From a virus: a stretch of 38,355 nucleotides of DNA. Within the stretch, counting starts at the first letter, position 1. Each line of letters begins with the position of its first letter. The notes below the pieces were generated by a model, which was not told where the DNA came from, searched no databases, and worked only from the letters and a program-made list of their open reading frames with translations. The translations under genes were made by a program, and so were the position numbers. Positions 1,147 to 38,355 of the stretch are shown one piece after another. The stretch spans positions 117,708 through 156,062 of the IMG/VR virus record IMGVR_UViG_3300031999_007842. One strand, 5' to 3'.

Positions 1147-1556
1147 TCAAGACCCTTTATGCAGAGGATGGAGGCAAGGCTCTTCGTCTTCAATTCACAG
1201 AAGAAGTTGTAGCTAGATTGCGGAAACTACAAGCAACCGTTCAGAATTTACCTCTTGAACAAGGAGAGTATGCATTAATAGAATATTATATGAGAAAAAG
1301 CATAGTTCTTGTCCGGAAGAAATCTATTGATATTGGAAACTGGGGATATGAAGGATGGGAAACCTATCTAGGTGGGTCGGACTCCTTGAAAACAATAGAT
1401 GATCTGCCAGAAGTTCATTTCACTTCGATGTTCTTGTATTATATGCAAGGTGGATATACAGGAGTGGATGACGCGGGAAGGGAAGGATTCACAAAACTTA
1501 TATTGCCTAAACATAAGGAATTGATAGTCTGGAAGAAGATAGAGGGAACTGCATGA
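1122..1556 (+). CDS. Uncharacterised 144-residue protein upstream of topoisomerase IB
   Basis: The ATG lies 25 bases inside the end of the RNase H-like gene and follows AAGGAACGGAAG. The N-terminus is basic (MAVKKRRIVK). The middle is a mixed alpha/beta sequence with many aromatic residues (YALIEYYMRKS, WGYEGWETYLGG, FLYYMQGGY). There are no cysteine motifs, membrane segment or known catalytic signature. It shares an ATGA junction with topoisomerase IB, so the two are probably translated together, but no functional link can be drawn from sequence. Confidence 0.6.
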   Translation: MAVKKRRIVKTLYAEDGGKALRLQFTEEVVARLRKLQATVQNLPLEQGEYALIEYYMRKSIVLVRKKSIDIGNWGYEGWETYLGGSDSLKTIDDLPEVHFTSMFLYYMQGGYTGVDDAGREGFTKLILPKHKELIVWKKIEGTA

Positions 1557-3124
1557 AAAGTCTGGAACACAATGGAATATACCTCCCACACTACAATGTA
1601 GTTGGTTTGTCAGTAAAGTATCGAGGGAAACTGATTCCTCTTACTCCCTTGGCAGAGCAATTATGCATTCAGTTCGTCAAAAAGTTTGATCTACCTTACA
1701 TGCAGGATGAAACTTTTGTTCACAACTTCTTAAATGATCTAATCAGTGAACTTGCAAAGACCGATATAGGAAAGAAGATGCAGTGGGATGAGATAGATCT
1801 AGCAGATTGGGACTGGACTCATATTCAAGAATACATTGCCGATTTGAAAGCTAAAACAGAGGCGATGAGCAAGGAAGATAAAAAGACAGCAAGAGAACTT
1901 AGTAAGAAACTTAGAGAGGATCTCAAAGAGAAGTATGGTTATGCTGTCATGGACGGCAACAAAGTTCCACTTATGAATTGGGCTTCCGAGCCAGCATGTA
2001 TCTTTATGAGCAAAGGCAAGAACCCAAACCGTGGTAAGTGGAAATTACCAGTCACCAAGAGTGACATTACCCTAAACTTGAGTTCAGGGTCTCCTGACCA
2101 GTCATGGGGTGATATAGTGTGGAAACCAGATGAGATGTGGATCGCGTCATGGTCATCTCCGTTAGATGGCAAGATGAAATATGTCTGGTTCTCGCCTTCG
2201 TCAAGTATAAGGCAAGATAAGGAGAGAAAGAAATTCTCCCTCGCTTCTCAGCTAGGAAATGAATTGAATAAACTAGAGCGGTATATTGAAAAGGAGCTAG
2301 GTAGCTCTGACTTAGAAAGAAGGAAATTATCTACAGCAGTGTATTTGATTAAATCTCTCGCACTTCGTGTGGGCGATGAGAAACTAGCAGGAGAACACGG
2401 TACAGTAGGCTGTACTACTTTAAAGAAAGAGAATATAACTATTGAAGACAGTAGAATCCATCTCTCATTCATAGGAAAAGACTATGTTAAATGGGAGAGG
2501 GATTTGGAAGTATCAGAGAAAGTGAAAAGAAACCTAGTTGAGTTTGTCAAGAAAGCGAGGGAGGATTTTATCTTCAAGGGTCTCAATTCAAACAAGATAG
2601 CAGAATTCCTGAGAGAAATAATACCAGGACTCTCTGCAAAAGTATTTAGAACTTACATAGCAGGAACAATCTGGGATGAATACGCTAATAAAAATCTCAA
2701 AATGATTAGTGGTGAAACTTCTATACCAGTGAGGAAGTATCTCTTCAAACTAACTAACCTGGAAGTAGCCAAGAAACTCAATCATAAGAAAGCCTTACCA
2801 AAGAACTATGAGGAAAGACTAGCCAAGAAGAAACTTCAGTTCGAGATGGGAAAGACCAAGCTAGACTTGATAGAAGAAGGAGACTACAAGAAAGTCCAGG
2901 CACAGGAAAGGAAGGTAGAGAAGCTAGCCTGTGACTTCGAACTCTTGAGAGATACAACTGAATGGAACTTGGGGACAAGCCTTACTTCCTACATAGACCC
3001 GAACAAAGCAATGGCTTTTGTAGAGAAGGCCGATCTTGAAGTTGGTGACGTATACTCTAAATCATTGAAGGAGAAATACTCATGGGCAATCAAAGAAAAA
3101 GGAAAGGAAGAAAGCGAAAACTAA
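1553..3124 (+). CDS. Eukaryote-type DNA topoisomerase IB
   Basis: Relaxes supercoiled DNA by a transient 3'-phosphotyrosyl nick. The 523-residue protein follows the eukaryotic/thaumarchaeal Topo IB plan: an N-terminal core half (about 1-230; EPACIFMSKGKNPNRGKWK matches the lip region, KYVWFSPSSSIR the nose-cone region), the catalytic core (about 255-420), a charged linker (about 415-465) and the C-terminal tyrosine domain. All five catalytic residues are seen: Arg272 (ALRVGDEK), Lys309 (FIGKD), Arg366 (AKVFRTY), His411 (LNHKKALPK) and Tyr480 (LGTSLTSYIDP), followed by KEKYSWA. It lacks the long disordered N-terminal region of the human enzyme. This is not the shorter poxvirus/bacterial type. 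It overlaps the next gene by 43 bases. Confidence 0.95.
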   Translation: MKSLEHNGIYLPHYNVVGLSVKYRGKLIPLTPLAEQLCIQFVKKFDLPYMQDETFVHNFLNDLISELAKTDIGKKMQWDEIDLADWDWTHIQEYIADLKAKTEAMSKEDKKTARELSKKLREDLKEKYGYAVMDGNKVPLMNWASEPACIFMSKGKNPNRGKWKLPVTKSDITLNLSSGSPDQSWGDIVWKPDEMWIASWSSPLDGKMKYVWFSPSSSIRQDKERKKFSLASQLGNELNKLERYIEKELGSSDLERRKLSTAVYLIKSLALRVGDEKLAGEHGTVGCTTLKKENITIEDSRIHLSFIGKDYVKWERDLEVSEKVKRNLVEFVKKAREDFIFKGLNSNKIAEFLREIIPGLSAKVFRTYIAGTIWDEYANKNLKMISGETSIPVRKYLFKLTNLEVAKKLNHKKALPKNYEERLAKKKLQFEMGKTKLDLIEEGDYKKVQAQERKVEKLACDFELLRDTTEWNLGTSLTSYIDPNKAMAFVEKADLEVGDVYSKSLKEKYSWAIKEKGKEESEN

Positions 3125-3870
3125 GCACTGAACTTGAGACCCCAAAATGGAAGAGATGGGGCAAGAGGATTCTGACCATAGGGATAATTGCGATTGTAGT
3201 TTTTACACTTTTCAATCTATTCACGACAGGGAGTGAGGCGGGGCATTATAATTATTGTGTAGCACAAATCAATAAAGCGGGGGTTTTGCAAGACCTAAGA
3301 GACTGGGCAACCAAGAATAATGATCCCATAGATGGCTTAAACTTTACAGAACTTCTGAAGTGGGAACATAGGCATCTAGTCTATTGGGGTGGAGAACTTC
3401 AAGCCCGCCCAGAATCTCCAGTATCGATCCTAACTATAAACCAAGCAAAGATCTACCACGACAAGAGTGGAGCAACGTATTGGGCAGTCTACTGCTTAAG
3501 TTACAATTCCCTCCAAGTCATTGCGCCACAAGGAACAAACTTTGAATTCGATTATCTACAAGACTTGGGATTCACATTGGGGAGATGTGGAGAATTCTCT
3601 TTGCTTTACTATAGTCTGGTAACTGCAAATGGTTATATTGCCAGAGTAGTCTTAGACTGTTCAATACTGACTAACTCGTCTAAGAATACTGCAGGAGACC
3701 ATGCGTGGGTAGAACTCAAGAGCACGGATGGAAGTTGGTTACACTGTGACCCCACAGAAGCAATTGTCAATCACCCAGACATGTACAGAGATGAATGGAA
3801 TAAGGATGTCAATAGAGTCTATGCAGTAAATGGGATAGAAACAGTGGATGTGACAAGCACTTATGCATGA
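3082..3870 (+). CDS. Membrane-anchored PNGase-like transglutaminase-fold protein
   Basis: A 262-residue protein with a strongly basic N-terminus (1-30), one transmembrane helix (about 29-49, IGIIAIVVFTLF) and a transglutaminase-fold domain likely outside the cell. The triad is visible: Cys169 in GRCGEF, His207 in GDHAWVE and Asp223 in WLHCDPTEA. The following segment (MYRDEWNKDVNRVYAV then ETVDVTSTYA) matches the part of peptide:N-glycanase that reads YE.GWGKK..Y..A and EVVDVTWRY. PNGases remove N-glycans from glycoproteins; other transglutaminase-fold proteins are proteases or ligases, so the reaction is uncertain. Start ATG 3082 follows AAGGAGA at good spacing although it lies 43 bases inside the topoisomerase gene. 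Confidence 0.8.
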   Translation: MGNQRKRKGRKRKLSTELETPKWKRWGKRILTIGIIAIVVFTLFNLFTTGSEAGHYNYCVAQINKAGVLQDLRDWATKNNDPIDGLNFTELLKWEHRHLVYWGGELQARPESPVSILTINQAKIYHDKSGATYWAVYCLSYNSLQVIAPQGTNFEFDYLQDLGFTLGRCGEFSLLYYSLVTANGYIARVVLDCSILTNSSKNTAGDHAWVELKSTDGSWLHCDPTEAIVNHPDMYRDEWNKDVNRVYAVNGIETVDVTSTYA

Positions 3871-4234
3871 AATTAGACTCGCCAAACTAATTAAAGAAGT
3901 GGGAGAATTCATAGCTAAGAGACTAGAAGCGGGAGAATGGAATTTTGCTGTCTTCTATCAGCACGAGTTAGTCTGGTCCAATGACGAGAAAAGAGTATGG
4001 TGCAGACTATTCAAGAATTACAAGTTCAAAACGAAACATGCCTGGAAGACAGAAGCAATGGCTTTTGAGATATTTCTCCAACCTGAACAAGATACATGGA
4101 TAGATGAGATACAAATTAGTGTAGTGAGAGATAGTGAAATAATCTACTCCCGATCAGTGAACATAGCACCTATACATCTTTGTAAGGGAGATACTTTCAC
4201 AACACTTTTACAATTCAATATAAAAGAGGAGTGA
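3863..4234 (+). CDS. Uncharacterised 123-residue beta-rich protein
   Basis: Starts 8 bases before the end of the PNGase-like gene. An N-terminal amphipathic helix (about 1-25, LAKLIKEVGEFIAKRL) is followed by alternating short strands with many aromatic and hydrophobic residues (WNFAVFYQHELVW, AFEIFLQPEQD, EIQISVVRDSEIIYS, TLLQFNIKEE). There is no signal peptide, membrane helix or cysteine pair. I do not recognise the family. Its position directly after the PNGase-like protein makes co-translation likely. Confidence 0.55.
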   Translation: MHEIRLAKLIKEVGEFIAKRLEAGEWNFAVFYQHELVWSNDEKRVWCRLFKNYKFKTKHAWKTEAMAFEIFLQPEQDTWIDEIQISVVRDSEIIYSRSVNIAPIHLCKGDTFTTLLQFNIKEE

Positions 4235-7213: not shown

Positions 7214-7772
7214 AGTTGATCTTAAGCATATATTCAAACCAAGAAGAATAGGTAGTTCTCAGATCTACAAGGTACTACATAAGAATGAAATCCATGTCTA
7301 CTTAGCCGGGCCTATTTCATTTGCTGAGGATCTTCAAGATTATAGGAAATCTTTGACAGAAGGATTACAGAAGATCTCTACCAAATTTAAGATACACGAT
7401 CCATGGGAGCGAGAGCAAGTATCTGCTCATGCAGTCAAGTCTCCGATGGAGATAGCAGCTCTCGAAGAAAAGAAAGCTACGGCTGAAGAGATTGTAACCA
7501 AAGACTTGGAAGACATAGAAAGCTGTGATATGTTAATTGCATATATGTTCAGAATAGGTGTGGGGACTTCGATGGAAATCTTCTGGGCCAGTAGAGTTCT
7601 AGGTAAACCAGTGATCGTAGTTTACTCGCCTTCTGAAGAAGGAATTGAGGGTGTACCATTATGGTTATATGGCCATGCTAACCTGATCTTCCAATCGAAG
7701 AGAGGGCTATATAGCTGGTTTAGAAAAGCATTAGAGGAGATTGATGAAGATGGTGAAGACAAAAAAGCATGA
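7203..7772 (+). CDS. Nucleoside 2-deoxyribosyltransferase-like protein
   Basis: A 189-residue protein whose first strand reads VYLAGPISF, followed by HDPWERE, then DLEDIESCDMLIAYM and GVGTSMEIFWASRVLGKPVIVVY. This is the signature of the nucleoside 2-deoxyribosyltransferase / DNPH1-like fold, which exchanges or hydrolyses the N-glycosidic bond of deoxyribonucleosides or their monophosphates. The Glu of GTSMEI is in the position of the catalytic Glu. A role in nucleotide salvage, sanitation or modified-base metabolism fits the RNR, HD, MazG-like and Nmad1-like genes downstream. It overlaps the ClpP-like gene by 29 bases. Confidence 0.8.
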   Translation: MPSEVDLKHIFKPRRIGSSQIYKVLHKNEIHVYLAGPISFAEDLQDYRKSLTEGLQKISTKFKIHDPWEREQVSAHAVKSPMEIAALEEKKATAEEIVTKDLEDIESCDMLIAYMFRIGVGTSMEIFWASRVLGKPVIVVYSPSEEGIEGVPLWLYGHANLIFQSKRGLYSWFRKALEEIDEDGEDKKA

Positions 7773-8355
7773 AGAAGATGAACCGTGCCCAGAAACCTGG
7801 GAAATGATAGAGAAGAAAGGTTGCCTAGACGATGCTATTGACCTTGAACTTCTCAAGCACAGAACCTTAGTTCTTCACGGAGAACTTAATGAAGAACTAT
7901 GTAATAGAGTCTGCAAGAAATTAGTATATCTAGAGCTCAAGAAAGCGAAAGAGATCAACATTGTATTAAACTCAGTGGGTGGTGAAGTCTATCACGGTCT
8001 CTTGATATTCAATACCTTGGAAGACTTGAAGAAGAAGAACATAAAGGTAATTATTGAAGCTAGAGGCCTATGTGCAAGCATGGGTGTATGGGTACTTCTA
8101 GGTGGTTCAGAGAGAACATCATCAAAATACACTAGATTCCTACTTCATGAGACTTCATCCTTTACTTATGGTAAAGTCTCTGAGATGAAGGAAGGAGTAC
8201 AGGAACTTGAGAAACTTAACTTGATGCTAGATGATATTATCGTCAACCGTACCAAGATATCTCTGCAAAGGCTGCAACAGAAGACGAGAAAACGAGAATG
8301 GTGGCTCTCTGCCGAGGAAGCTCTCAAGTATGGACTCATTGATAGGATCACTTAG
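7744..8355 (+). CDS. ClpP-like serine protease
   Basis: ATG at 7744 follows TTAGAGGA; a TTG at 7741 is too close to it. The 203-residue protein has the ClpP/crotonase fold pattern: VLHGELN, NSVGGEVYHGL (oxyanion loop), ARGLCASMGVWVLL with nucleophile Ser112, TRFLLHETSS with His135, and the C-terminal WLSAEEALKYGLIDRI. In bacterial ClpP the triad Asp precedes RFLS; here the aligned residue is Glu185 (REWWLS), an unusual change. No Clp ATPase is visible in the window. Phage ClpP-like proteins often act as prohead proteases, so a capsid-maturation role is possible, but no capsid genes are seen here. Confidence 0.85.
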   Translation: MKMVKTKKHEEDEPCPETWEMIEKKGCLDDAIDLELLKHRTLVLHGELNEELCNRVCKKLVYLELKKAKEINIVLNSVGGEVYHGLLIFNTLEDLKKKNIKVIIEARGLCASMGVWVLLGGSERTSSKYTRFLLHETSSFTYGKVSEMKEGVQELEKLNLMLDDIIVNRTKISLQRLQQKTRKREWWLSAEEALKYGLIDRIT

Positions 8356-27651: not shown

Positions 27652-28087
27652 ATTTCCCTGCTTAGCATTCAAAGAGAATAGAATGATATTGTCAAGAGAA
27701 GAACTAGTGACGAAACTTAATGAAGCTAATGAGGTAGGGAAAAGTTGTGAAGTTGGCTTCTATGCATTCTCTACTTGGTGGAATCTAGATCCTGTTAAAG
27801 AAAGTGTAGTTATTGACAAAGTAATCTATCGAGGTTCTCAAGAGGTCCTAGAAAAACTAGCTGAGAGGAAACTGAAGGAAGGAATAGAATCAACACTTAT
27901 CTTTGATGGAGATAGAACTTTACTCTTTACAAAGGAACCTCAAGAGAAACTCACGGATCTAATGCAAATCAAGGAGCCGGGAACAGAGGTTATTTTAGAT
28001 ATAGATAAGAAGTTCATCTTCCCAGGTTACAGGAATCTTAAAACAGGTCAGATGAGTAAGATAGTAAAGAAGTGGAAATTGGAATGA
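27644..28087 (+). CDS. Uncharacterised protein downstream of polB
   Basis: TTG 27644 has GGAGGAA (27631-27637) upstream; ATG 27620 and ATG 27683 are alternatives in the same frame. The 147-residue protein is alpha/beta: VGFYAFSTWWN, VVIDKVIYRGSQEVLEKLAERKL, STLIFDGDRTLLFTKEP, ILDIDKKFIFPGYRNL. The pattern is not that of a known primase or clamp. It sits between polB and the glycosyltransferases. Function unknown. Confidence 0.5.
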   Translation: MLKFPCLAFKENRMILSREELVTKLNEANEVGKSCEVGFYAFSTWWNLDPVKESVVIDKVIYRGSQEVLEKLAERKLKEGIESTLIFDGDRTLLFTKEPQEKLTDLMQIKEPGTEVILDIDKKFIFPGYRNLKTGQMSKIVKKWKLE

Positions 28088-29127
28088 AGAAAGTAGTCTG
28101 GATCTCAGATTTCCCCTTAAGAGGTTCGTCCTTTGGTTCTGTAACCTATGATCTACTTACAAGGATGCCCAAAGAATACTACTTTGAAGTTCTAAGTCTA
28201 GGGTATGAGGGAATGCCACTGAAGATAGCAGACAACATAAGAGTCTTCGAACTCAAGAAGTCATACCAATTAAAATACTATTATTCAAAACTGAAACCAG
28301 ACATTTCTGTAGTTTTCCATTCATTTTGGATGCTCGAGTCAATGATTGATCAAATTGAAAATATGGCAGGAAAGAAGATCCTGTATCTCCCTTGTGAAGG
28401 AGAAGATATCCCATATCAATATCAGAAGCACTTTGCTCGCTTTGACACAATTTGCACGCCTTCAGAGTTCTCTAGAAAGATAATGAAGAAGTGTGGGATA
28501 AATGCAATAGTGATTCCACATGGCGTAGACACTAATTTCTTTGTACCTAAATCGAAGGAATGGCATGAGTTCAGATTTGGCTACATAGGACTTAACGATA
28601 TACGCAAGCAAATCCCTAGAGTAATGGAAGCATACTCTAGAGTTAAACAAGGAATGCTTGTAATAGCTGCTGATAATGTAGGGCACTATGATCTAACCCA
28701 GTTAGCCAAGCAATATCAAATCTCACCAATATTCATTGAAGCTAAACTTAACGGCCTAACTTTGAACAGAGAAGCTGTGCGAGACTTCCTACAATCACTT
28801 GATATCTATATCTCACCTGCTTCAGAATCATTTGGTCTTCCAGCACTTGAGGCTCAGGCTTGTGGTGTACCAGTCATAGCATCTTCTCATGGAGCTGCAC
28901 AAGAAGTGTTAGGAAATGGGGCAGTATATTGTGGAGTATCTGATTTTCTAGAGACTTCAGTAGGCAAGATAGGACTTATAAGTACTGCTGATCTCTATCG
29001 TAAGATGAGATTCATGGTACAAGTCAAGGATGCCTTGGATAGGACTTCAGTAAAAGCTCTCAATAATTCAAAGAAATGGTCCTGGGAGAACGCTGTCAAA
29101 AAGATGGTGGAGGTGTTTGAATCATAA
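28084..29127 (+). CDS. Glycosyltransferase family 4-like protein
   Basis: ATG 28084 in an ATGA overlap. The 347-residue protein has a GT-B fold layout: N-terminal KVVWISDFPLRGSSFGSVTYDLL, the linker VIPHGVDTNFF, and the C-terminal donor-binding motif SPASESFGLPALEAQACGVPVIAS (E-x7-E) as in GT4 enzymes. It would move a sugar from an NDP-sugar to a lipid, glycan or protein acceptor in the cytoplasm. First gene of the glycan cluster. Confidence 0.85.
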   Translation: MKKVVWISDFPLRGSSFGSVTYDLLTRMPKEYYFEVLSLGYEGMPLKIADNIRVFELKKSYQLKYYYSKLKPDISVVFHSFWMLESMIDQIENMAGKKILYLPCEGEDIPYQYQKHFARFDTICTPSEFSRKIMKKCGINAIVIPHGVDTNFFVPKSKEWHEFRFGYIGLNDIRKQIPRVMEAYSRVKQGMLVIAADNVGHYDLTQLAKQYQISPIFIEAKLNGLTLNREAVRDFLQSLDIYISPASESFGLPALEAQACGVPVIASSHGAAQEVLGNGAVYCGVSDFLETSVGKIGLISTADLYRKMRFMVQVKDALDRTSVKALNNSKKWSWENAVKKMVEVFES

Positions 29128-29552
29128 GTACTCGTATAACTGGAACCTTTGCCAATCCTAGATTTTTAGGAGTAAAGGATATTGACCCTATTCTCAAGAA
29201 GCGGAATGACGAATTGACAGATGAAGAACTCTGGGAGAAGATTCTTGGTGGAGGATACGAGCAACCTTATTGCCCAGATTGCCACTTCAAAATGTTAGTT
29301 ACTCAGTTTATTATGGAATATCAACTAAGTTCACCGTACATGGTTGGAATAAATGCACCTTTTTCTGTAGGATCCTGGAACGTGCTAGCCAGTCCACCTA
29401 TTATAAAGATAGAGATACAATGCCCTAACTGTCGTCTTCTCATCAAGGGAGTTGGAATAGGTCTAAGATTTGAAGGGGACGCATATTATCTTGCGATACT
29501 CAAGGTAATCGAGAAACAACGAGCTGATATACCATGGCCCTTCCAGATGTAA
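29124..29552 (+). CDS. Zinc-ribbon protein with probable non-ATG start
   Basis: The frame is open from 29121 and reads (M)STRITGTFANPRFLGVKD before the TTG at 29214 that would be the first standard start. At 29124 an ATA overlaps the TAA stop of the preceding gene, exactly where other genes here have ATGA, with GGAGGTG (29108-29114) at good spacing. One G-to-A change would turn ATGA into ATAA. The protein has CPDCHF and CPNCRLL about 50 residues apart, likely one zinc site. If TTG 29214 is used instead, 29128-29213 is noncoding. Function unknown. Confidence 0.5.
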   Translation: MSTRITGTFANPRFLGVKDIDPILKKRNDELTDEELWEKILGGGYEQPYCPDCHFKMLVTQFIMEYQLSSPYMVGINAPFSVGSWNVLASPPIIKIEIQCPNCRLLIKGVGIGLRFEGDAYYLAILKVIEKQRADIPWPFQM

Positions 29553-30040
29553 GGATACCGCCAATCTATAGAGAAGACTATGAAGTCCACTGGGGCAAGA
29601 TAGACTATAAAGGAAAGAGGGTTCTAGACACCGGCGCCTCAAATGGAGACACTGCAGACTTCTTTCTAAGACATGGAGCAAAGGATGTCGTTGCTGTTGA
29701 AGGCGATGATAAACTTTATCCTCTACTTGAATCAAATGCTAAGAAAATTACAGAAATAATTCCTATTAGTATGTGGATAGAGAATAAAGAGCAATGGCAG
29801 GAATTGATAAATATCTGGAAGCCAGATGTGATCAAGTCAGACTGTGAAGGTTGTGAGGCAACACTCTTTCTGATTGAAAATAACGTCTGGTGTCTTGTTC
29901 CTGAATATATCATTGAAGTACATGGGAAAGAGATAAGAGAACTCATGCTCAAGAAATGTCTTGAGAATAACTATGAGATAGTAAATATTAATGCCTGGGC
30001 AAAAGATGCAGCTACAATCATCTATGCTCGCAAGAAATAA
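29534..30040 (+). CDS. FkbM-like SAM-dependent methyltransferase
   Basis: A 168-residue protein with VLDTGASNGDTADFFLRHGA (SAM-binding motif I), VVAVEGDDKLY (acidic loop), VIKSDCEGCEATLF (the DxEG motif of FkbM methyltransferases) and EYIIEVHG. The family methylates hydroxyl groups of sugars or polyketides, so O-methylation of a glycan is the likely role, in keeping with the cluster. Starts 19 bases before the end of the zinc-ribbon gene. Confidence 0.8.
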   Translation: MALPDVRIPPIYREDYEVHWGKIDYKGKRVLDTGASNGDTADFFLRHGAKDVVAVEGDDKLYPLLESNAKKITEIIPISMWIENKEQWQELINIWKPDVIKSDCEGCEATLFLIENNVWCLVPEYIIEVHGKEIRELMLKKCLENNYEIVNINAWAKDAATIIYARKK

Positions 30041-30076
30041 AAGGGTCTTGGGATGAATAGTAATGGAGGATCGAGA

Positions 30077-30364
30077 ATGAGTACCGAAAAGCCAGAACAA
30101 GAAAAAGTTCGCGAGGTACATGGCTTCCAGTGTATGTTCTGTGGAGAGATCCACACTACCAAAGATGAAGCAGAACTTTGCTGGCAGAGGCATGTCCAAT
30201 TTCAGTTTGAACCTTACTTCACAATGGATGATGAATTCCCTATAGAAGTTCTAGTCAAGAAGATAGAGGGAAATCGTTATACCACAATAGCAACTTACAG
30301 TCTAAAAGGAAAAGAGAAGGTAGACTTACCAGTAAAAGAGGAACCTGCAAATGAGCAAGAATAA
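30077..30364 (+). CDS. Small zinc-finger-like protein
   Basis: ATG 30077 follows GGAGGA; the in-frame ATG at 30053 lacks such a site. The 95-residue protein has FQCMFCGEIHTTKDEAELCWQRHVQ, a C-x2-C...C-x3-H pattern that fits a single zinc finger, followed by a beta-like part (YTTIATYSLKG) and an acidic tail. Function unknown. Confidence 0.55.
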   Translation: MSTEKPEQEKVREVHGFQCMFCGEIHTTKDEAELCWQRHVQFQFEPYFTMDDEFPIEVLVKKIEGNRYTTIATYSLKGKEKVDLPVKEEPANEQE

Positions 30365-31721
30365 AGTATTAGAAGGATATGAAAAGCAGAAGACATCAGA
30401 TGGAAAAGTAATCATGGTGCCTTCAGATCAGAAAATAGAAGCCCTTAAGAAAGATATCAATACCCAAATACAGGCACAGAAGACCTACAAGGACATGAGG
30501 ATCTTGTGGCATTCAGTAGCTCCCTACATCAATTCAGGGTATGGAACCGTCACACGATACTTCATGACTGGACTACTTAATAGAGGCTTTGTAGGAATGG
30601 TCTCGGCCTATTATGGATTGCAGCCAGGAGGCATGATTAACTGGAAAGGCCTTTATGTCTTACCAGTACAAAAAACCAGCAGCGACCAATTAGGGTTTGC
30701 ATCTACAGCGGAGCATTACAAGAGATTCAAATGTGATCTAGGAATATTTCATGCTGACTTCTGGGTATCATACCAGTTCGCTAAGAGAATACCTCATTCA
30801 CTTTGCTATTCGCCAGTGGACCATGAAAAGTACCCCGGGAAATGGCTAGAAGTATTACGAGCTTATAAATGGGTTGCAGTTCCATCCATGCATGCACAGA
30901 AGGAACTTAAGAAGTGCGGACTTGAAGCAACCTTTGTTCCCCATGGAGTAGATACACAAGCTTATCACCCATTAGACCAAGCCCTTAGTAGAAAGGCTTA
31001 CACGCTCTCACCTGACAGGTTTGTAATAGGAATAGTGGCAGCTAACAATGATGATGAGACAAGGAAAGCTTGGGATGCTAATTTCCAGGCAATTAAGTAT
31101 TTCTTTGAACAGAATCCGGAAGCTGTGAAGGATACAGATGTGTTTGTCCACACTGACCCTGAGAATGAGAGAGGTAGAAACCTAGTGGAACTATCCAGAC
31201 AGATAGGCATTGAGAAGTCAATAATCTGGAATGATCGTTACACCGCTTCACTTTTGACCCTGCCAGAAAGTGCAATGTGCAAGCTTTACAATTGCTTCGA
31301 TGTTTTCCTATTACTATCGAGAAGAGAAGGCTTCTGTATTCCTGCTCTTGAAGCTCAGGCCTGTGGAGTACCATGCATACTTAATGACTTCTCAGCATTG
31401 TCTGAGAGAAATGACTTCGGACGATGTGGTTGGTTAACTAAACCTGCTACATACGTGTATTCACCACTTAACGCTATAACTTCAATCCCAGATCCCTACA
31501 AAGGTGCTGATGCATTAGCAGAAGCATATAAGAATGAGGCTAAGAGAAAGATGTTTGGCAAACGAGCATTGGCTTTTGCCAAAAGACAGACATGGGACAT
31601 TGCACTCGATAAACATATGATGCCTTTGCTAAAGAAGATCTTTGAAGAGATCCCAGGGATGGAAGAAAGAGCTAAGGACATGGAGAAACCTAAAGTACTC
31701 ACCACTGGTGAAAAGGAGTGA
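30351..31721 (+). CDS. Glycosyltransferase (GT4-like)
   Basis: A 456-residue GT-B-type protein. A Lys-rich N-terminal extension (1-45) precedes ILWHSVAPYINSGYGTVTRYF. Later come VPSMHAQKEL, FVPHGVDTQAY, IGIVAANND and SRREGFCIPALEAQACGVPCI, the E-x7-E donor site of GT4. The N-terminal Gly-rich loop (SGYGTVT) resembles that of other GT4 enzymes. Acceptor unknown. It shares a GTGA overlap with the next gene. Confidence 0.85.
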   Translation: MSKNKVLEGYEKQKTSDGKVIMVPSDQKIEALKKDINTQIQAQKTYKDMRILWHSVAPYINSGYGTVTRYFMTGLLNRGFVGMVSAYYGLQPGGMINWKGLYVLPVQKTSSDQLGFASTAEHYKRFKCDLGIFHADFWVSYQFAKRIPHSLCYSPVDHEKYPGKWLEVLRAYKWVAVPSMHAQKELKKCGLEATFVPHGVDTQAYHPLDQALSRKAYTLSPDRFVIGIVAANNDDETRKAWDANFQAIKYFFEQNPEAVKDTDVFVHTDPENERGRNLVELSRQIGIEKSIIWNDRYTASLLTLPESAMCKLYNCFDVFLLLSRREGFCIPALEAQACGVPCILNDFSALSERNDFGRCGWLTKPATYVYSPLNAITSIPDPYKGADALAEAYKNEAKRKMFGKRALAFAKRQTWDIALDKHMMPLLKKIFEEIPGMEERAKDMEKPKVLTTGEKE

Positions 31722-32530
31722 GAATAGGCTGGATATCCTCACGCACCTGGCCAACGTCAGTCGGTGGTGCTGAGGCAACAGATTTTACCTACATTCAGGA
31801 AGGAAAGAAAAGAGGACATGAAATTGCTTTCCTTCGCTCTTATGATCCAACATGTGATTTCTTTGTTCTCTCGAATGTTCATGATTGGCCAGTTAAGTTC
31901 GTTGAAGGAATCCTGAGAAATGCCTCTTATGCTCTATACAGGCATGATGCCTTCAATATAATATACCAGCAGCCATACTTCAAGAATCCTTTTGTTGTCG
32001 TCTTTATGTCTCCTCTCCAAAAAGATTTCTACTTACAGAGAATTAATGTCAAGAAATATTTTCTAACACCATGTGCCTTACAGGATCTAGACCAATACAA
32101 GACTGGAGAAAAGAAGACAGATCACTATGTATACATAGGAGATCTTCTTGATCACAAAGGACTTCGCAATATAATTCAATATGCAATAGAAAATCCTCAT
32201 GAGAAGTTTGTACTTTATGGTAAGAGGTTTCAGAGCCTTGACCTCCCGAAAAACACTCAATACCTAGGAGAACTTAAGCCTGAAGAGATCCCTGATATTT
32301 TGAACAAGGCGAAGCACTACATCTCTCTCCCTTCATTAATAGACACATGCCCTAGAACAGTAACTGGAGCTTACTTGAGTGGATGTAAGATAATCTATAA
32401 TAACAATGTAGGACTCTTCTCGTGGGATTGGGATTGGCCTACAATGACAAGAGTGAAACTCAAGCAAATTCTTATGGAAGCTCCAACTAAGTTCTGGGCG
32501 AATCTAGAAGGTGCATACACTGAGCGATGA
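31718..32530 (+). CDS. Glycosyltransferase-like protein
   Basis: GTG 31718 overlaps the stop before it (GTGA) and follows AAAAGGA. The 270-residue protein has RIGWISSRTWPTSVGGAEATDF, a GT-B N-terminal Gly-rich loop, and later YIGDLLDHKGLRNIIQYA and ISLPSLIDTCPRTVTGAYLSGC, which correspond to the donor-binding region but with Asp and Cys where the E-x7-E pair is normal. It is shorter than typical GT4 enzymes (270 versus about 350). It may be a divergent or partly degraded transferase. Confidence 0.7.
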   Translation: MRIGWISSRTWPTSVGGAEATDFTYIQEGKKRGHEIAFLRSYDPTCDFFVLSNVHDWPVKFVEGILRNASYALYRHDAFNIIYQQPYFKNPFVVVFMSPLQKDFYLQRINVKKYFLTPCALQDLDQYKTGEKKTDHYVYIGDLLDHKGLRNIIQYAIENPHEKFVLYGKRFQSLDLPKNTQYLGELKPEEIPDILNKAKHYISLPSLIDTCPRTVTGAYLSGCKIIYNNNVGLFSWDWDWPTMTRVKLKQILMEAPTKFWANLEGAYTER

Positions 32531-32550
32531 ATCCAGAGGAGGAAATCCAG

Positions 32551-33408
32551 ATGAAAGTGGCCCTATTCTTTGATGTGTATGGTTGGTGCTTCGAGACTGA
32601 ATGCGAGGGACTAAAGAAGTATTCAAAATATCAATGTGATACATTCGCTGGAGTTCCAGATGGAAGAATGGAGCTAAGTCCGGAAGTGCTAAGTGACTAT
32701 GACATTGTCTTCTTCTCATGCCCAGAACTATTCGCACCCTATCAAAAGTTTCCTAGAACAGCTAAGGTTGTTTGTGGAGTAGCCTCGTTGAATGGGGTGG
32801 GAGCAACAGATGGAAAAGCTGATGTTTACAATGGAGTATCTAGGGAGATTGCTGATTTAGTGCAAGCACGATTCCCACGGAAGAAGGTAGTGTATATCCC
32901 AGATGGTGTGGATCCTGAAATATTCAAACCTCTGAATCTAGAGCATTCGTTTACGATCGGATGGGCAGGAAACTTTCCGAGAAGAGAGAAACGAACTTAC
33001 CTTCTCAAGAGTCTTGATTATCCGGTCAAAATAAAGAGTGACCTTATCTATCAAACAGGCATGAACAAAATAGCGATGGTGCAGTTCTATAATTCTATAG
33101 ATATAGTCCTCCTTGTCTCTGCTTCAGAAGGATGCTCACTTGTACCTTTAGAAGCTGCTGCTTGCAAGGCTGCATTTGTAGGGACTGCGACAGGAACAGT
33201 ATTGGATTACATCCCTGCCCGTTGGTTAGTACCTTGCAATCCAGAAGAGATAGTAATCAAAGAACTTAATGAAAAGCTACACATGTTAGAGGATAATTCC
33301 AGTCTCCTCCTATCCTACAAGGAACAACTCCATAAGAAGGTACTTGAAGAGTACACCTGGAAGGCTATAGTCAAGCAACATGAAGCACTGTGGGAGAGTC
33401 TAATATGA
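32551..33408 (+). CDS. Glycosyltransferase (GT-B fold)
   Basis: ATG 32551 follows GAGGAGG; an in-frame ATG at 32527 lacks a good site. The 285-residue protein has KVALFFDVYGWCFETECEGL, YIPDGVDPEIFKP, the strand TIGWAGNFPRREKRTYLL, and SASEGCSLVPLEAAACKAAFVGT (E-x7-E). These are the GT4 hallmarks in a compact form. Donor and acceptor unknown. Confidence 0.8.
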   Translation: MKVALFFDVYGWCFETECEGLKKYSKYQCDTFAGVPDGRMELSPEVLSDYDIVFFSCPELFAPYQKFPRTAKVVCGVASLNGVGATDGKADVYNGVSREIADLVQARFPRKKVVYIPDGVDPEIFKPLNLEHSFTIGWAGNFPRREKRTYLLKSLDYPVKIKSDLIYQTGMNKIAMVQFYNSIDIVLLVSASEGCSLVPLEAAACKAAFVGTATGTVLDYIPARWLVPCNPEEIVIKELNEKLHMLEDNSSLLLSYKEQLHKKVLEEYTWKAIVKQHEALWESLI

Positions 33409-33929
33409 GTAGAATCTGGTTCGATGATGGGCATGCCGATGTCTATACCAAGGCTTATCCTCTCATGAAAGCATATAAGCAGATAGGAATTGTTGCTGTA
33501 ATTACTGGGCAGGTTGGACAAAAGATGTATTGGGCAGGTGTACCCCCAAATGAAGAAGAGAGATGGATAGATCTCATGCCTATAGAGCATCTTCAAGAGT
33601 TGGTTACTAATGGTTGGAAGATAGCCAGTCATTCAGTAACTCATAGAGATCTCGATATGTTAACATTAGAGGAAGTCGAGAAAGAAATCCTAGATTCCAA
33701 GAAATGGATCCAAGACAAATTGAAAGTTGAACCTCTAGCTTTTGCTCCACCTAGACATAGAATAACTCCTGAGCAAGAGCAATTAGTTCTCAAGCATTAT
33801 CCCTATTGTAGAACCTGGCCCGGACAAGGAGAGTTTGTCTTCCATACTTTCACATACTTCGGAGAGACAACTAATGAACTAGAGAAGACTCTGCAACATC
33901 TCAAGATGGAGGGAATCAAATGCATCTGA
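33405..33929 (+). CDS. Polysaccharide deacetylase (NodB-like)
   Basis: ATG 33405 in an ATGA overlap. The 174-residue protein has IWFDDGHADVY (Asp7, Asp8), IASHSVTHRDLDML (His76, His80 for zinc) and FAPPRHRITPEQ, the NodB motifs 1-3 of carbohydrate esterase family 4. The enzyme would remove N-acetyl groups from amino sugars. No signal peptide is seen, so it probably acts in the cytoplasm on precursors. Overlaps the next gene by 10 bases. Confidence 0.85.
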   Translation: MSRIWFDDGHADVYTKAYPLMKAYKQIGIVAVITGQVGQKMYWAGVPPNEEERWIDLMPIEHLQELVTNGWKIASHSVTHRDLDMLTLEEVEKEILDSKKWIQDKLKVEPLAFAPPRHRITPEQEQLVLKHYPYCRTWPGQGEFVFHTFTYFGETTNELEKTLQHLKMEGIKCI

Positions 33930-34846
33930 TATGGCTAGGAACACAGAGAGAAATCTATCCTATGAAGTTCTTGAGGCACTCTCTGGAGAAAATAGTACCT
34001 ATGTCTTGCTATGGAGAACCGTGTTTAAGGTCAGGCCAACGATGCGAGGAATTCAAAGAGGATTATGATCTTAAGGGTATATTGGATACTAACAAGGAAG
34101 CTGATGCTCTTATTGTCGATTTCAATAAAGGAACTACTTGGAACTCCTGGAAATACAAAAGTACAGACATCCTTAAGGTGGCCATAATCTACGATGCAAT
34201 CCAAGACTTCGCATCGTTTATACCTAGGTTACAAGAGTGGGAATTTGACATAGTTTGTCTAACCCAAGGTTCGAAAGAACTTACAGCTCTATATGAAACT
34301 CTTTATCCAAGCAAGTATTACACTCTTCCATTTTCAATAGACCCTGAAGTGTTCAAGTGTGAGGAGAGGAAGAGAAGAGATCTAGATTGTGTTTTGATAG
34401 GGGCAATGACTTCAGATGGATATCCATTTAGAATGAAGATCTGTGAATATCTCAACAATGAGAAGAAAGGACCGGTAGTAGCTTCAGATAAAAAACTTGC
34501 CATAGAAACTTACGTTCATTATCTCAACCGAGCTAAGATATCTCCTTTCTGCAGTAGCATCTACAGGTATGTGCTTGCCAAGTACTGGGAAGGAATGTTC
34601 TGTAAGACTTTGGTGATGGCTGATCAGCCGATGGAAGTACCAGGAACATTGCTCAGGTCGGGATATAATTATGTGGAAATATCGGCCAAGAACTTCAAGA
34701 GAGAGATAGATTACTATCTTGAGCATGAAGATGAACGTAATACTATAATTGAGAATGCCTACTCTTATGTAGTCCAGTATCATACTTCAGACATCAGAGC
34801 TAGACAGTTTAAGGAGATAATAGAGGAAGGTCTTGATTCAAGATGA
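33920..34846 (+). CDS. Glycosyltransferase-like protein, copy 1 of a pair
   Basis: A 308-residue protein related to the one that follows: both start with an I-W-x-G-T-x-R-E motif (LIWLGTQRE), have a linker YTLPFSIDPEVFK, the strand CVLIGAMTSDGYPFR, and end with YHTSDIRARQF. The pattern fits spore-protein YkvP/CgeB-like glycosyltransferases. E-x7-E is not clear. It may have arisen by duplication with the next gene. Confidence 0.7.
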   Translation: MHLIWLGTQREIYPMKFLRHSLEKIVPMSCYGEPCLRSGQRCEEFKEDYDLKGILDTNKEADALIVDFNKGTTWNSWKYKSTDILKVAIIYDAIQDFASFIPRLQEWEFDIVCLTQGSKELTALYETLYPSKYYTLPFSIDPEVFKCEERKRRDLDCVLIGAMTSDGYPFRMKICEYLNNEKKGPVVASDKKLAIETYVHYLNRAKISPFCSSIYRYVLAKYWEGMFCKTLVMADQPMEVPGTLLRSGYNYVEISAKNFKREIDYYLEHEDERNTIIENAYSYVVQYHTSDIRARQFKEIIEEGLDSR

Positions 34847-35799
34847 AGATAATCTGGATGGGAACTTATAGAGAAGATTCGTGTACCCGCTACTTCAGAA
34901 GAGAACTGGCAAGACAAGCTGAAGTCAAGTTCTATGGAGAGAATCCGTCGGGAGGAGGATCTCCAGATCATGGATACAGTTCCTCGGAGAACCACCAAGA
35001 ATGGATCGAGGAATATGACTTGGCTGAGATAGAAAAGGTTGAGAAACCAGACTGGTTTGTAGTCTATTGCTATGTAAGCGAACACTTCTTCTGGCCAAAA
35101 ATCAAGGTCAATTCTCTCAAGACTCCTATAGCTCTAATCATAAATGATCCTATCCAAGACAAAGATAGAATCCTAGAAAAACTAAGAACCTGGCAAGTAG
35201 AGAAAGCTTTCCTCGTCTATTGGAGTGGAGGCCTCTGTGAAATGTTTGAACAGAACTATCGTGCCCAGTACTACCATCTTCCGTACTCAATAGACCAGAC
35301 TATCTTCAAGCCATTGCAGGAGCCTAAGATTGCAGATGTGTGTTTCGTAGGGGTTACAGATAGTTATTGGTACCCACTGAGAAGTAAGATACTCAAAGAC
35401 ATAGAGCAGGGAGTCACAGAAGCAGGAATGAAATTAAAAGTAAGGATAGAGATCGGTCACAAGTTCTCTACTTCAGATTATGTAAAGTTCATCAACTCAG
35501 GATATATCTTTCCTGTCGATGGAGGACGCTATGAATATCCTGTAGCAAAGTACTTCGAAGTGATGGCTTGCAAGACTCTAGCACTTGGCCCTGAACCTCT
35601 TGATGCAAACCTTCTCCACTTCAAAAGTGGAGAGAATCTTGGTGTCCTTTCCCATCAGAATATAAGAGCAGACATTCGACAATATCTCTTGGATCATAAA
35701 GAGAGGGAAAGGATAAGTGAAAATGGATATAAGACCGTACTAAAGTACCATACTAATGAGATAAGAGCAAGATTCTTCTTGGAGATGCTAAAGAAATGA
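34843..35799 (+). CDS. Glycosyltransferase-like protein, copy 2 of a pair
   Basis: A 318-residue paralogue of the gene before it: IIWMGTYREDSC at the start, YHLPYSIDQTIFKP, the strand CFVGVTDSYWYPLR, AKYFEVMACKTLALGPEP and YHTNEIRARFF at the end. In both copies the two-domain GT-B layout and the CgeB-like end are kept, while the N-terminal acceptor part has diverged (PSGGGSPDHGYSS is unique). This suggests two related sugars or acceptors. ATGA overlaps on both sides. Confidence 0.72.
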   Translation: MKIIWMGTYREDSCTRYFRRELARQAEVKFYGENPSGGGSPDHGYSSSENHQEWIEEYDLAEIEKVEKPDWFVVYCYVSEHFFWPKIKVNSLKTPIALIINDPIQDKDRILEKLRTWQVEKAFLVYWSGGLCEMFEQNYRAQYYHLPYSIDQTIFKPLQEPKIADVCFVGVTDSYWYPLRSKILKDIEQGVTEAGMKLKVRIEIGHKFSTSDYVKFINSGYIFPVDGGRYEYPVAKYFEVMACKTLALGPEPLDANLLHFKSGENLGVLSHQNIRADIRQYLLDHKERERISENGYKTVLKYHTNEIRARFFLEMLKK

Positions 35800-36620
35800 T
35801 CAAGACACGGACCATAATAAAAGGAAACTATGTAGACATAGATCCTTCAGCAGACATAGAATGTAATGAACTAGAGATTGGCGACTGTGTCACTATCCTC
35901 AAAGATGTAAAGATTAGAGGCAATAAGATAAAGATAGGAAACTATGTGAGATTCTGCCCTAATTCTGAGATAGGAGGCGGTGGAGGAGTTCCCAATGTTC
36001 ACTCGAATGTTACAATAGGAAATAATGTTTTGGTCTGTGCTTATGTCCTAATCAACAATGCAAGAGAAGTTGTCATTGGAGATGATGTAGGCCTAGGACA
36101 GTACGTACATATCTGGACTCATGGAGGATGGCTTAACACTCTAGATGGATACCCTTGCAAATTCGCTCCTGTCAAGATTGGCTCACATATCTGGATTCCT
36201 GAAAGAACTTCTGTTTTGGCAGGAGTTACAATCGGAGATCATGTGATAGTGGGAAACAATTCATTGGTTGATAAGGACATACCAGGAGGATCCTTTGCTG
36301 CTGGAATTCCAGTCAAAATCTTAAAAGAAGGAGTGTTCCCAAAGCCTCTCTCACAAGAAGAGAAAGATAAACTTCTGGAGAGACTAGTGAAGGAATGGGT
36401 GGATGAACATCCCTTCCATATCCCAATTGCTGCTTACCTAGGAGGAGGAAGAATTAGATTCAAAGCTCTAATCTTTGATACAAACAGCATGGAGATCTCT
36501 GGAGAACTCGATGAGGAAGGTGAGGACTTAAGAGATCATCTGAGACGGAATGGAATCAAGTTCTTTACTGGAAAGCCATTCAGGTCTATGGTATATAACG
36601 GAGAAAGGGGATCTAATTAG
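35796..36620 (+). CDS. Left-handed beta-helix acyltransferase (hexapeptide repeat)
   Basis: A 274-residue protein made of hexapeptide repeats ([LIV]-G-x4): LEIGDCVTI, IKIGNYVRF, VTIGNNVLV, VVIGDDVGLG, VKIGSHIWI, VTIGDHVIVGNNSLV and the usual PGGSFAAGIPVKIL at the end. WIWHG-like features appear in YVHIWTHGG. The family includes sugar O- and N-acetyltransferases, for example of 4-amino sugars. With the DegT-type gene it may make an N-acylated amino sugar. The C-terminal 75 residues (after IPVKIL) are not part of the repeat and are unexplained. Confidence 0.85.
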   Translation: MIKTRTIIKGNYVDIDPSADIECNELEIGDCVTILKDVKIRGNKIKIGNYVRFCPNSEIGGGGGVPNVHSNVTIGNNVLVCAYVLINNAREVVIGDDVGLGQYVHIWTHGGWLNTLDGYPCKFAPVKIGSHIWIPERTSVLAGVTIGDHVIVGNNSLVDKDIPGGSFAAGIPVKILKEGVFPKPLSQEEKDKLLERLVKEWVDEHPFHIPIAAYLGGGRIRFKALIFDTNSMEISGELDEEGEDLRDHLRRNGIKFFTGKPFRSMVYNGERGSN

Positions 36621-36622
36621 GT

Positions 36623-37246
36623 ATGAAGACTGCACTAGTTTTAGCAGCACATGGTGATGATGAGACTTCCATGGCAGGGACAATTCGCAAACTGGTCCTG
36701 AATAAATGGAAGGTTCATTTGATAGTTGGAACATTGGAAATAGGGAATATAAATAGAACTAGTGAGGAACTTGAACAAGCACTCAAATTGCTAGGAGTTT
36801 CTGGTTATGATCTTCTGGATTTCAGAAGCTGGGTCAGGGATGATAGAACCCTCATCTCTGTACTGGATCAGAAGATAGAGAATATAAAGCCTGATGTAAT
36901 CTTTTCTCATTGGCTGGGAGATACTCACCTTGAGCACCAGCTACTTACTAAGGCTGCAATGACAGCCATAAGAAGAACTGGGATTAGTCTTTTGATGTAT
37001 AAGGAACCAAACACAGGTGGACCTTCATCTGAAGCATTTAGACCTGATATCCTTATTGACATCACTGAAACTTATGATCTGAAGATCAGGACGTTGGAAG
37101 CCTATAAGAGCCAGATATCTAGATACAAGTTCTGGAGGCAGGCAACTGAAGGAGCTGCCAAGTATTATGGTTCAATGATGATGGTTCCCTATGCAGAAGC
37201 ATTTCAAGTTGTTAAGTTCATCTGGAATGAGGATTGGAAAATATGA
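36623..37246 (+). CDS. PIG-L/LmbE-like N-deacetylase
   Basis: A 207-residue protein with LVLAAHGDDETSMAGTI (A-H-x-D-D-E, zinc and catalytic residues 9-14) and IFSHWLGDTHLEHQ, the second zinc site (HxxH). The family removes acetyl groups from GlcNAc-containing lipids and sugar precursors. It acts in the cytoplasm (no signal peptide). It complements the NodB-like deacetylase and the acyltransferase in a pathway that edits N-acyl groups. Confidence 0.85.
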   Translation: MKTALVLAAHGDDETSMAGTIRKLVLNKWKVHLIVGTLEIGNINRTSEELEQALKLLGVSGYDLLDFRSWVRDDRTLISVLDQKIENIKPDVIFSHWLGDTHLEHQLLTKAAMTAIRRTGISLLMYKEPNTGGPSSEAFRPDILIDITETYDLKIRTLEAYKSQISRYKFWRQATEGAAKYYGSMMMVPYAEAFQVVKFIWNEDWKI

Positions 37247-38355
37247 AGATACCTCCTGTCAAACTCTACTTTCCTCCTGAAGATATCGTGAAGATTCAAG
37301 AGGATGTCAAGAAGATCCTAGAAAGTGGCATGCTAACTCTAGGAGAGTATACAAGAAGATTTGAAAAGAAGTTTGCTCAGTTGAGCCAAACGAAGTTTGC
37401 AGTAGCAACCAATAGTGGAACAAGTGCTTTAGAGATTATTTTGCGTTCTTTACCTATCCCCAAATCTGCTATAGTACTTGTTCCCACCAATACATTCACT
37501 GCAACTGCTGCTACTGTAATACTTAGTGGGCATAAACTCAAGTTAATAGATGTTAATCCAGTCTCGGCTTGCCTAAGTCTAAAGGCAATAGAGGCCAACT
37601 TGAATCCAAAGCCTGCTGCTATAATAGTAGTCCATATCGGTGGGCTAATGGCACCAGAGATCTTTGAAATAAGAGAGTATTGTACATCGCATGGTATTTA
37701 CCTAGTAGAAGATGCTGCTCATGCTCAAGGTTCTATAGCAAGAGGTAGTCCTGCAGGATCATTAGGGATTGCGGGTGCGTTCTCATTCTATCCCACGAAG
37801 GTTATAACTTCCGGAGAGGGAGGAATGGTGGTCACTAATGACAAACACATCTATGAGGAAGGCCTCAGACTTAGAGATCAAGGTAAGGACAGTTTCCTTT
37901 GTAATGATATAGTAAGGATCGGAAATAATTGGAGACTTCCAGAGATCAGTGCTGCTGTGGGGCTTCGCCAACTAAAGCGATTGGATAAGATCATACAGGA
38001 TAGAACTGAGGCGGCTTCTTACTTTGAAGGAGGCTTAGCTGAGATTCCATCTATTGAAACAAGAGATACACCAAATGACTTTAGGAACAATTACTACAAG
38101 TATATCTTGTATACCAAGAACAGAGATAGACTTTCTAAGTTCCTGAACGAGCAAGGAATTTCATGCTCAGGTGCAGTATATGATCCACCATTACATCTCC
38201 AGCCTATCTATAGGAACTTACTGGGGATGAAGGAAGGAGATCTTCCCAACGCGGAGATGGTCAGCAAGACCATGTTATGTCTCCCTATGTTCAAGATGAC
38301 TCAAGAAGAGAAAGAGTATATAGTAAATAAAATAAAAGAGTGTGAAATGAAGTGA
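37243..38355 (+). CDS. DegT/DnrJ/EryC1/StrS-type sugar aminotransferase
   Basis: ATG 37243 in an ATGA overlap; TTG 37234 is an alternative. The 370-residue PLP enzyme has ATNSGTSALEIILR, PTNTFTATA, VEDAAHAQGSIA and the Lys186 motif FSFYPTKVITSGEGG, and later RIGNNWRLPEISAAVG, all standard for DegT-type proteins. It transfers an amino group from glutamate to a keto-sugar nucleotide. No NDP-sugar dehydratase is visible in the window, so its keto-sugar must come from another gene or from the host. The stop codon is the last three bases of the window. Confidence 0.92.
   Translation: MKIPPVKLYFPPEDIVKIQEDVKKILESGMLTLGEYTRRFEKKFAQLSQTKFAVATNSGTSALEIILRSLPIPKSAIVLVPTNTFTATAATVILSGHKLKLIDVNPVSACLSLKAIEANLNPKPAAIIVVHIGGLMAPEIFEIREYCTSHGIYLVEDAAHAQGSIARGSPAGSLGIAGAFSFYPTKVITSGEGGMVVTNDKHIYEEGLRLRDQGKDSFLCNDIVRIGNNWRLPEISAAVGLRQLKRLDKIIQDRTEAASYFEGGLAEIPSIETRDTPNDFRNNYYKYILYTKNRDRLSKFLNEQGISCSGAVYDPPLHLQPIYRNLLGMKEGDLPNAEMVSKTMLCLPMFKMTQEEKEYIVNKIKECEMK

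Follow-up and report, generated by a model that had tools for sequence, protein, structure and literature searches.

A membrane-anchored, zinc-free protein of the PNGase branch encoded by a tailed virus that most likely infects a bathyarchaeon

The stretch of DNA analyzed in this study (hereafter the window; 38,355 bases) covers positions 117708–156062, the last 38 kb of a 156,062-base IMG/VR virus record. Genes for a terminase large subunit, a portal, an HK97-type major head protein and a head-maturation-type protease were identified in this record, which indicates that it represents a tailed virus. At 7741–8355 of the window, a gene for a ClpP/head-maturation-type protease is surrounded by small accessory genes, at a long distance from where the record encodes its structural proteins. 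The gene considered here (Table 1) starts with ATG, preceded by the ribosome-binding-type sequence GGAG, and overlaps both the upstream gene for topoisomerase IB and a small downstream ORF (3863–4234) to which no family could be assigned. The topoisomerase gene of this tailed archaeal virus is complete, with N-terminal, catalytic and C-terminal Pfam domains.

A glycan cassette, comprising genes for GT4-type glycosyltransferases, a polysaccharide deacetylase, a hexapeptide transferase, a PIG-L deacetylase and a DegT aminotransferase, starts at 28.1 kb of the window, and replication and nucleotide genes lie between it and the PNGase-like gene. The preliminary description of this DNA had placed the PNGase-like gene beside a glycan-synthesis set. 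The two do occur in the same virus, but they are about 24 kb apart and the next gene encodes topoisomerase IB; membership of the PNGase-like gene in the cassette was rejected on this distance. No STT3-type oligosaccharyltransferase was identified in the record of the window virus.

Table 1. Features of the PNGase-like gene and its surroundings (window coordinates).
Feature	Position	Strand	Basis
Membrane-anchored PNGase-branch transglutaminase-fold protein, 262 aa	3082..3870	+	ORF, Pfam, PDB sequence search
Basic N-terminal tail, residues 1-29, net charge +11, predicted cytoplasmic	3082..3168	+	Charge count
Single transmembrane segment, residues 30-48	3169..3225	+	Hydropathy 2.45; helix 22-48 in model
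Conserved pre-core element NFTELLKWEHRHLVYW...RPESPVSIL	3340..3435	+	Alignment
Insert of ~45 residues (122-166), directly before catalytic Cys	3445..3579	+	Alignment, model
GRCGEF motif, catalytic Cys169 (codon 3586-3588)	3580..3597	+	ORF translation, alignment
GDHAWVE motif (from Asp206), catalytic His207 (codon 3700-3702)	3697..3717	+	Translation, alignment
WLHCDPTEA motif, catalytic Asp223 (codon 3748-3750) and conserved Glu226	3736..3762	+	Translation, alignment
PNGase-type post-triad segment (P.MY...W.K....VYA.....VDVT..Y)	3775..3864	+	Sequence alignment
Eukaryotic-type topoisomerase IB, upstream neighbor	1553..3124	+	Pfam
Glycan cassette of the window virus	28072..38355	+	Encoded proteins

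Within the ORF, the motifs GRCGEF, GDHAWVE and WLHCDPTEA are followed in this order by MYRDEWNKDVNRVYAVNGIETVDVTSTY. The window contains a single occurrence of a degenerate DNA pattern for the Cys motif, and 100 shuffles yielded no occurrence. The window protein matched Transglut_core (PF01841) in Pfam with an E value of 1.8e-7 (31.8 bits against a cut-off of 23), and this model matched all 23 members of the family at E values up to 0.01. Only three PDB sequences, from mouse and yeast PNGase, were matched by the window protein at E values up to 10 (5.8e-7, 0.01 and 0.011), and the aligned residues 166–261 include the post-triad segment. A profile of the 23 family members matched mouse PNGase at 2e-32 and yeast PNGase at about 7e-28, followed by a bacterial "putative cysteine protease" (3isr) at 5.5e-5, and retrieved no XPC/Rad4 chain up to an E value of 0.1. 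The Rad4 model of Pfam matched 13 of the 23 members, the window protein not among them, while searches of NCBIfam and PHROGs yielded no named family for the window protein. The preliminary description of a PNGase-like transglutaminase with an intact Cys-His-Asp triad and PNGase-matching segments after it is therefore supported by the motifs at Cys169, His207 and Asp223, by the exclusively PNGase matches in the PDB, by the profile and by an alignment that reaches VDVT..Y.

Besides the triad, R188, W209, E211, W219, E226, Y235, W239 and VDVT..Y align with yeast and mouse PNGase, and several of these positions presumably face the sugar or take part in activity in yeast Png1. Upstream of the core, the archaeal R-H-N-D-P....GRCGEF corresponds to R-Y-N-D/N-P....GRCGEW of PNGase and, in a weaker alignment, ELLEW-H corresponds to ELLHWFKEE. 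The pre-core element is thus the counterpart of LLELLHWFKEE...RYNNPEKLL without the zinc insert between its two parts; the intervening stretch (about residues 75–123 of the mouse enzyme) is absent from the zinc-less archaeal branch. The insert before Cys169 is found at full length in no relative and is specific to the window protein, with the copy in virus L101 having about seven residues there, and it could reshape the substrate groove.

Fold comparisons were consistent with these results. A mean pLDDT of 67.5 was obtained for the window protein with AlphaFold2, and the model of the related protein L008 was better (83.9); confidence is low ahead of the Cys in both, within the insert in the window protein. 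In the PDB, the window model was closest to four PNGase chains (2.8e-7 to 2.2e-5), followed by XPC/Rad4 (7e-4 or worse) and transglutaminase 2/factor XIII (2.5e-2 or worse). For the L008 model, XPC and PNGase were about equal, and ligase and peptidase types scored 3e-3 or worse. In neither search did a protease- or ligase-type transglutaminase match more closely than PNGase, the result that the preliminary description had named as evidence against its assignment. A BFVD fold search returned weak, mostly unnamed matches only, and profile–profile comparison with hhalign gave a match of 99.4% to zinc-type archaeal PNGases. Together, these comparisons identify the window protein as a predicted membrane-anchored, PNGase-branch domain of the transglutaminase fold with an intact triad and without the zinc module.

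The membrane anchor suggested earlier corresponds to one hydrophobic segment, with a net charge of +11 before it and 0 over the 20 residues after it. From these charges we infer that the catalytic domain sits outside the cell membrane on a type II anchor. Positive-inside charges were also found in the membrane homologs L033, L040 and L042, in which helices flank the domain on both sides. The charges flanking the helix in the viral-type copies L006 and L008 do not favor an outside domain.

No CxxC motif was found anywhere in the window protein or in the viral relatives checked. Seven full-length, zinc-type archaeal PNGase homologs (L081–L085, L087 and L088) were recovered from Thermoproteota genomes; they contain two CxxC motifs before the Cys, G[RK]C[GS]EW and a DVT-type end, and have no membrane helix. 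Their two CxxC motifs fall in the gap that is missing from the zinc-less branch. In one class of this phylum, 11 of 150 genomes matched the profile at a strict cut-off. A tree was constructed from 43 core domains, with the mouse and yeast enzymes representing the eukaryotes. In this tree, the zinc-type archaeal proteins form a clade with mouse and yeast PNGase (support 98/90), and the viral copies form a single clade (97/94) among membrane-anchored Bathyarchaeia proteins. Support is lower for the deeper branch that joins the viral clade to the anchored Bathyarchaeia proteins (82/87) and reaches only 80/65 for the whole zinc-less group, which includes the window protein.

The lack of CxxC motifs and the tree placement indicate that the viral enzyme belongs to a zinc-less sister branch of PNGase and is not a Png1/NGLY1 orthologue, as judged from sequence comparison. 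The PNGase identity proposed in the preliminary description is thus retained for the branch and the core, but the two CxxC motifs are absent and the protein groups beside, rather than within, the zinc-bearing PNGases. Because of the missing zinc motifs and the sister-branch position, glycanase activity is not deducible from homology.

With a profile of viral-type sequences, relatives were recovered at E values up to 1e-3 from 65 of the 257 genomes of the Bathyarchaeia class; the weaker ones may be other transglutaminases. Two kinds were present among the relatives sampled: zinc-less proteins that are about 160 residues long and lack a membrane helix (15 of 15 sampled) and membrane-anchored proteins (L016, L017, L033, L037, L040–L043, L094 and L095). 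The latter appear to be the nearest cellular lineage of the viral gene. In the neighborhoods of 20 cellular homologs, the commonest neighbor was an MFS-type transporter, recognized by eye in six regions, and no steady link to glycan or proteolysis genes was found; in view of this lack of a steady neighbor, nothing was inferred from these neighborhoods. The host of the window virus is most likely a bathyarchaeon, as suggested by the kinship of its genes with Bathyarchaeia sequences. That the gene is carried by an archaeal element, as stated earlier, agrees with the tailed-virus record and with the position of the viral clade beside Bathyarchaeia proteins.

When the same gene was searched for in other archaeal viruses, it was found in four further IMG/VR records (L005, L006, L007 and L101) and on a 3.5-kb contig in a Bathyarchaeum MAG (L008). 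A viral origin of this contig is probable, given that the gene next to its PNGase-like gene is 45% identical to one located immediately upstream of the PNGase-like gene in L101. All viral copies have an intact triad and are 39–43% identical to the window protein, and they mostly lie in differing neighborhoods, in which some genes were named by eye from their sequences and not by profiles. The PNGase-like gene follows genes for a Lon-type protease and a Cas4-like protein in L005 and L006, lies among small ORFs in L007, and is near RNA-ligase-like and NUDIX-like genes in L101. Scans of viral contigs with the single window protein, its DNA polymerase or its topoisomerase gave no match, probably because the query stretches were too specific, since alignment queries did retrieve relatives. 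Phage records yielded only tail-protein matches (24–25% identity, E 0.08–0.3), which were dismissed as chance.

Other genes also connect these viruses. The Lon protein of the window virus is 63% identical to that of L005 and 50% identical to that of L006, and further proteins share 56–72% identity with L007. The order of Lon-type protease with membrane segments, Cas4-like and PNGase-like genes is seen at L005:2294-6309 and L006:2880-6282, and the same Lon adjoins the portal gene in the window virus (record positions 31502-33673). Proteins encoded at G000:101503-102468 and L007:4105-5094 are 61% identical between the two viruses and, by eye, look like an archaeal release factor. Many small ORFs at L007:1433-12123 end in NPS.R or similar, perhaps because the ribosome-binding signal of the following gene (AAYCCNTC..AGGAGG) is translated; this pattern showed no coding-strand enrichment in the window (9 versus 8). 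A frameshifted viral-type copy is present in a Bathyarchaeota chromosome (L009:5809-6290, MAG Yes71-20), adjoining genes that resemble, by eye, a cdv (ESCRT-type) division cluster. Decay of a viral gene or an error in assembly may explain this broken copy.

Our working interpretation, possible although somewhat short of probable, is that the protein is an outward-facing, anchored amidase of Bathyarchaeia origin that performs a PNGase-type reaction on N-glycoproteins of the host surface. The viral gene would have been acquired from Bathyarchaeia. Cys169 would attack the side-chain amide joining Asn to the first sugar of the N-glycan, His207 and Asp223 would assist, and water would free the glycan. 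Host N-glycosylated surface proteins (S-layer, pili) would be the likely substrates, and their loosening or masking late in infection might help exit or stop re-infection.

The weakest step of this proposal is the one from a PNGase-branch amidase to an enzyme that removes N-glycans. It is favored by the specific kinship to PNGase and by the oligosaccharyltransferase STT3, which was identified in 39 of 41 genomes of the Bathyarchaeia class and suggests that N-glycoproteins should exist there. The missing zinc module weakens it, as do the zinc-less relatives without a membrane helix; these look cytosolic, and N-glycoproteins are not expected in the cytosol, so the ancestral reaction may have been another amide hydrolysis. 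The poorly modeled 45-aa insert beside the active Cys also counts against N-glycan removal, and the viral neighbor genes (topoisomerase, Lon/Cas4-like, RNA ligase-like and NUDIX-like) provide no pointer to glycans. Mutation C165T of yeast Png1, at one Cys of the second CxxC, abolished activity (PMC2866665), whereas fly Pngl, reported to lack the second CxxC motif, does deglycosylate according to a later review (PMC8997433), so that the absence of the zinc module is not decisive.

The main rival to the N-glycanase reading, which we consider rather doubtful, is a surface peptidase or endoisopeptidase whose anchored Cys domain would serve exit by cleaving an amide, either peptide or isopeptide, of the S-layer protein or its anchor in the host envelope, similar to PeiW/PeiP. 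The same triad chemistry has a viral, envelope-directed precedent in these enzymes (PMC4592898), 3isr is the next profile match after PNGase, and the missing zinc module together with the insert suggests a changed substrate. However, sequence and fold are nearest to PNGase and not to peptidase-type members, the PNGase-type post-triad segment is retained whole, and no PeiW/PeiP match surfaced in the Pfam, NCBIfam and PHROGs searches.

A transglutaminase or deamidase that modifies Gln/Asn, or crosslinks proteins, of the host surface or virion appears quite improbable. Ligase-type transglutaminases score far below PNGase, even though transglutaminase 2 and factor XIII share the fold with weaker scores, and PNGases differ in this respect: that of Arabidopsis was reported with both activities (PMC2866665), but that of Dictyostelium was without such activity (PMC3502110). 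It is very unlikely that the anchor places the protein at the membrane for a mainly cytoplasmic-side function in the host cell, or for a non-catalytic binding role as reported for fungal PNGase. Such roles would suit the zinc-less relatives without a membrane helix, which are common in Bathyarchaeia, and the charges of L006 and L008, but every viral copy retains the triad and the +11 before the helix of the window protein argues against them.

Knowledge of a transglutaminase superfamily with archaeal members reportedly dates from 1999. We found no description of an archaeal PNGase or of such a viral enzyme in the open-licence part of the literature that was searched. A transglutaminase has been marked in archaeal pleomorphic viruses (PMC10919331), and the main text of a survey of Bathyarchaeia viruses does not mention a transglutaminase or glycanase (PMC10848311). 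It might even be, although we regard this as unlikely, that tailed archaeal viruses show on the infected cell an anchored, zinc-free N-glycanase, a sister lineage of the ERAD enzyme, that strips host surface N-glycans. If the activity is confirmed, tailed viruses would have a self-encoded enzyme for removing archaeal N-glycans and a means of coping with a glycosylated S-layer. Regardless of activity, the zinc-less and zinc-bearing archaeal branches offer a concrete path to testing the origin of eukaryotic PNGase, on which the zinc-type archaeal homologs bear, and what the PNGase core did before the zinc module was gained.

Among known systems, PeiW/PeiP of methanogen viruses are similar in having a viral Cys-His-Asp transglutaminase-type triad and an archaeal envelope target (PMC4592898), but they cut an Ala-Lys isopeptide bond and no specific relationship to the window protein was found. 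XPC/Rad4, the second fold match of the window model, shares the transglutaminase fold and the branch; it is DNA-binding and catalytically inactive, whereas the triad of the window protein is intact. Png1/NGLY1 (EC 3.5.1.52) has the same triad order and spacing, with GRCGE[FW], DH.W.E and W.H.D, an R-[YH]-N-[DN]-P-type segment of the family before the Cys, and the full post-triad segment ending in VDVT..Y. Different from this cytosolic and soluble enzyme, the window protein lacks the two-CxxC zinc module as well as PUB/PAW and Rad23-binding parts, falls in a sister branch of the tree, and has an N-terminal anchor that probably places it outside the cell. The zinc-type archaeal homologs have the same core and end segment, but contain two CxxC motifs before the Cys, lack a membrane helix and group with the eukaryotic enzyme. 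The membrane-anchored Bathyarchaeia proteins are cellular, some with extra membrane helices and several with changed motifs such as ARCGGY, and they share with the window protein both the zinc-less core and the N-terminal anchor.
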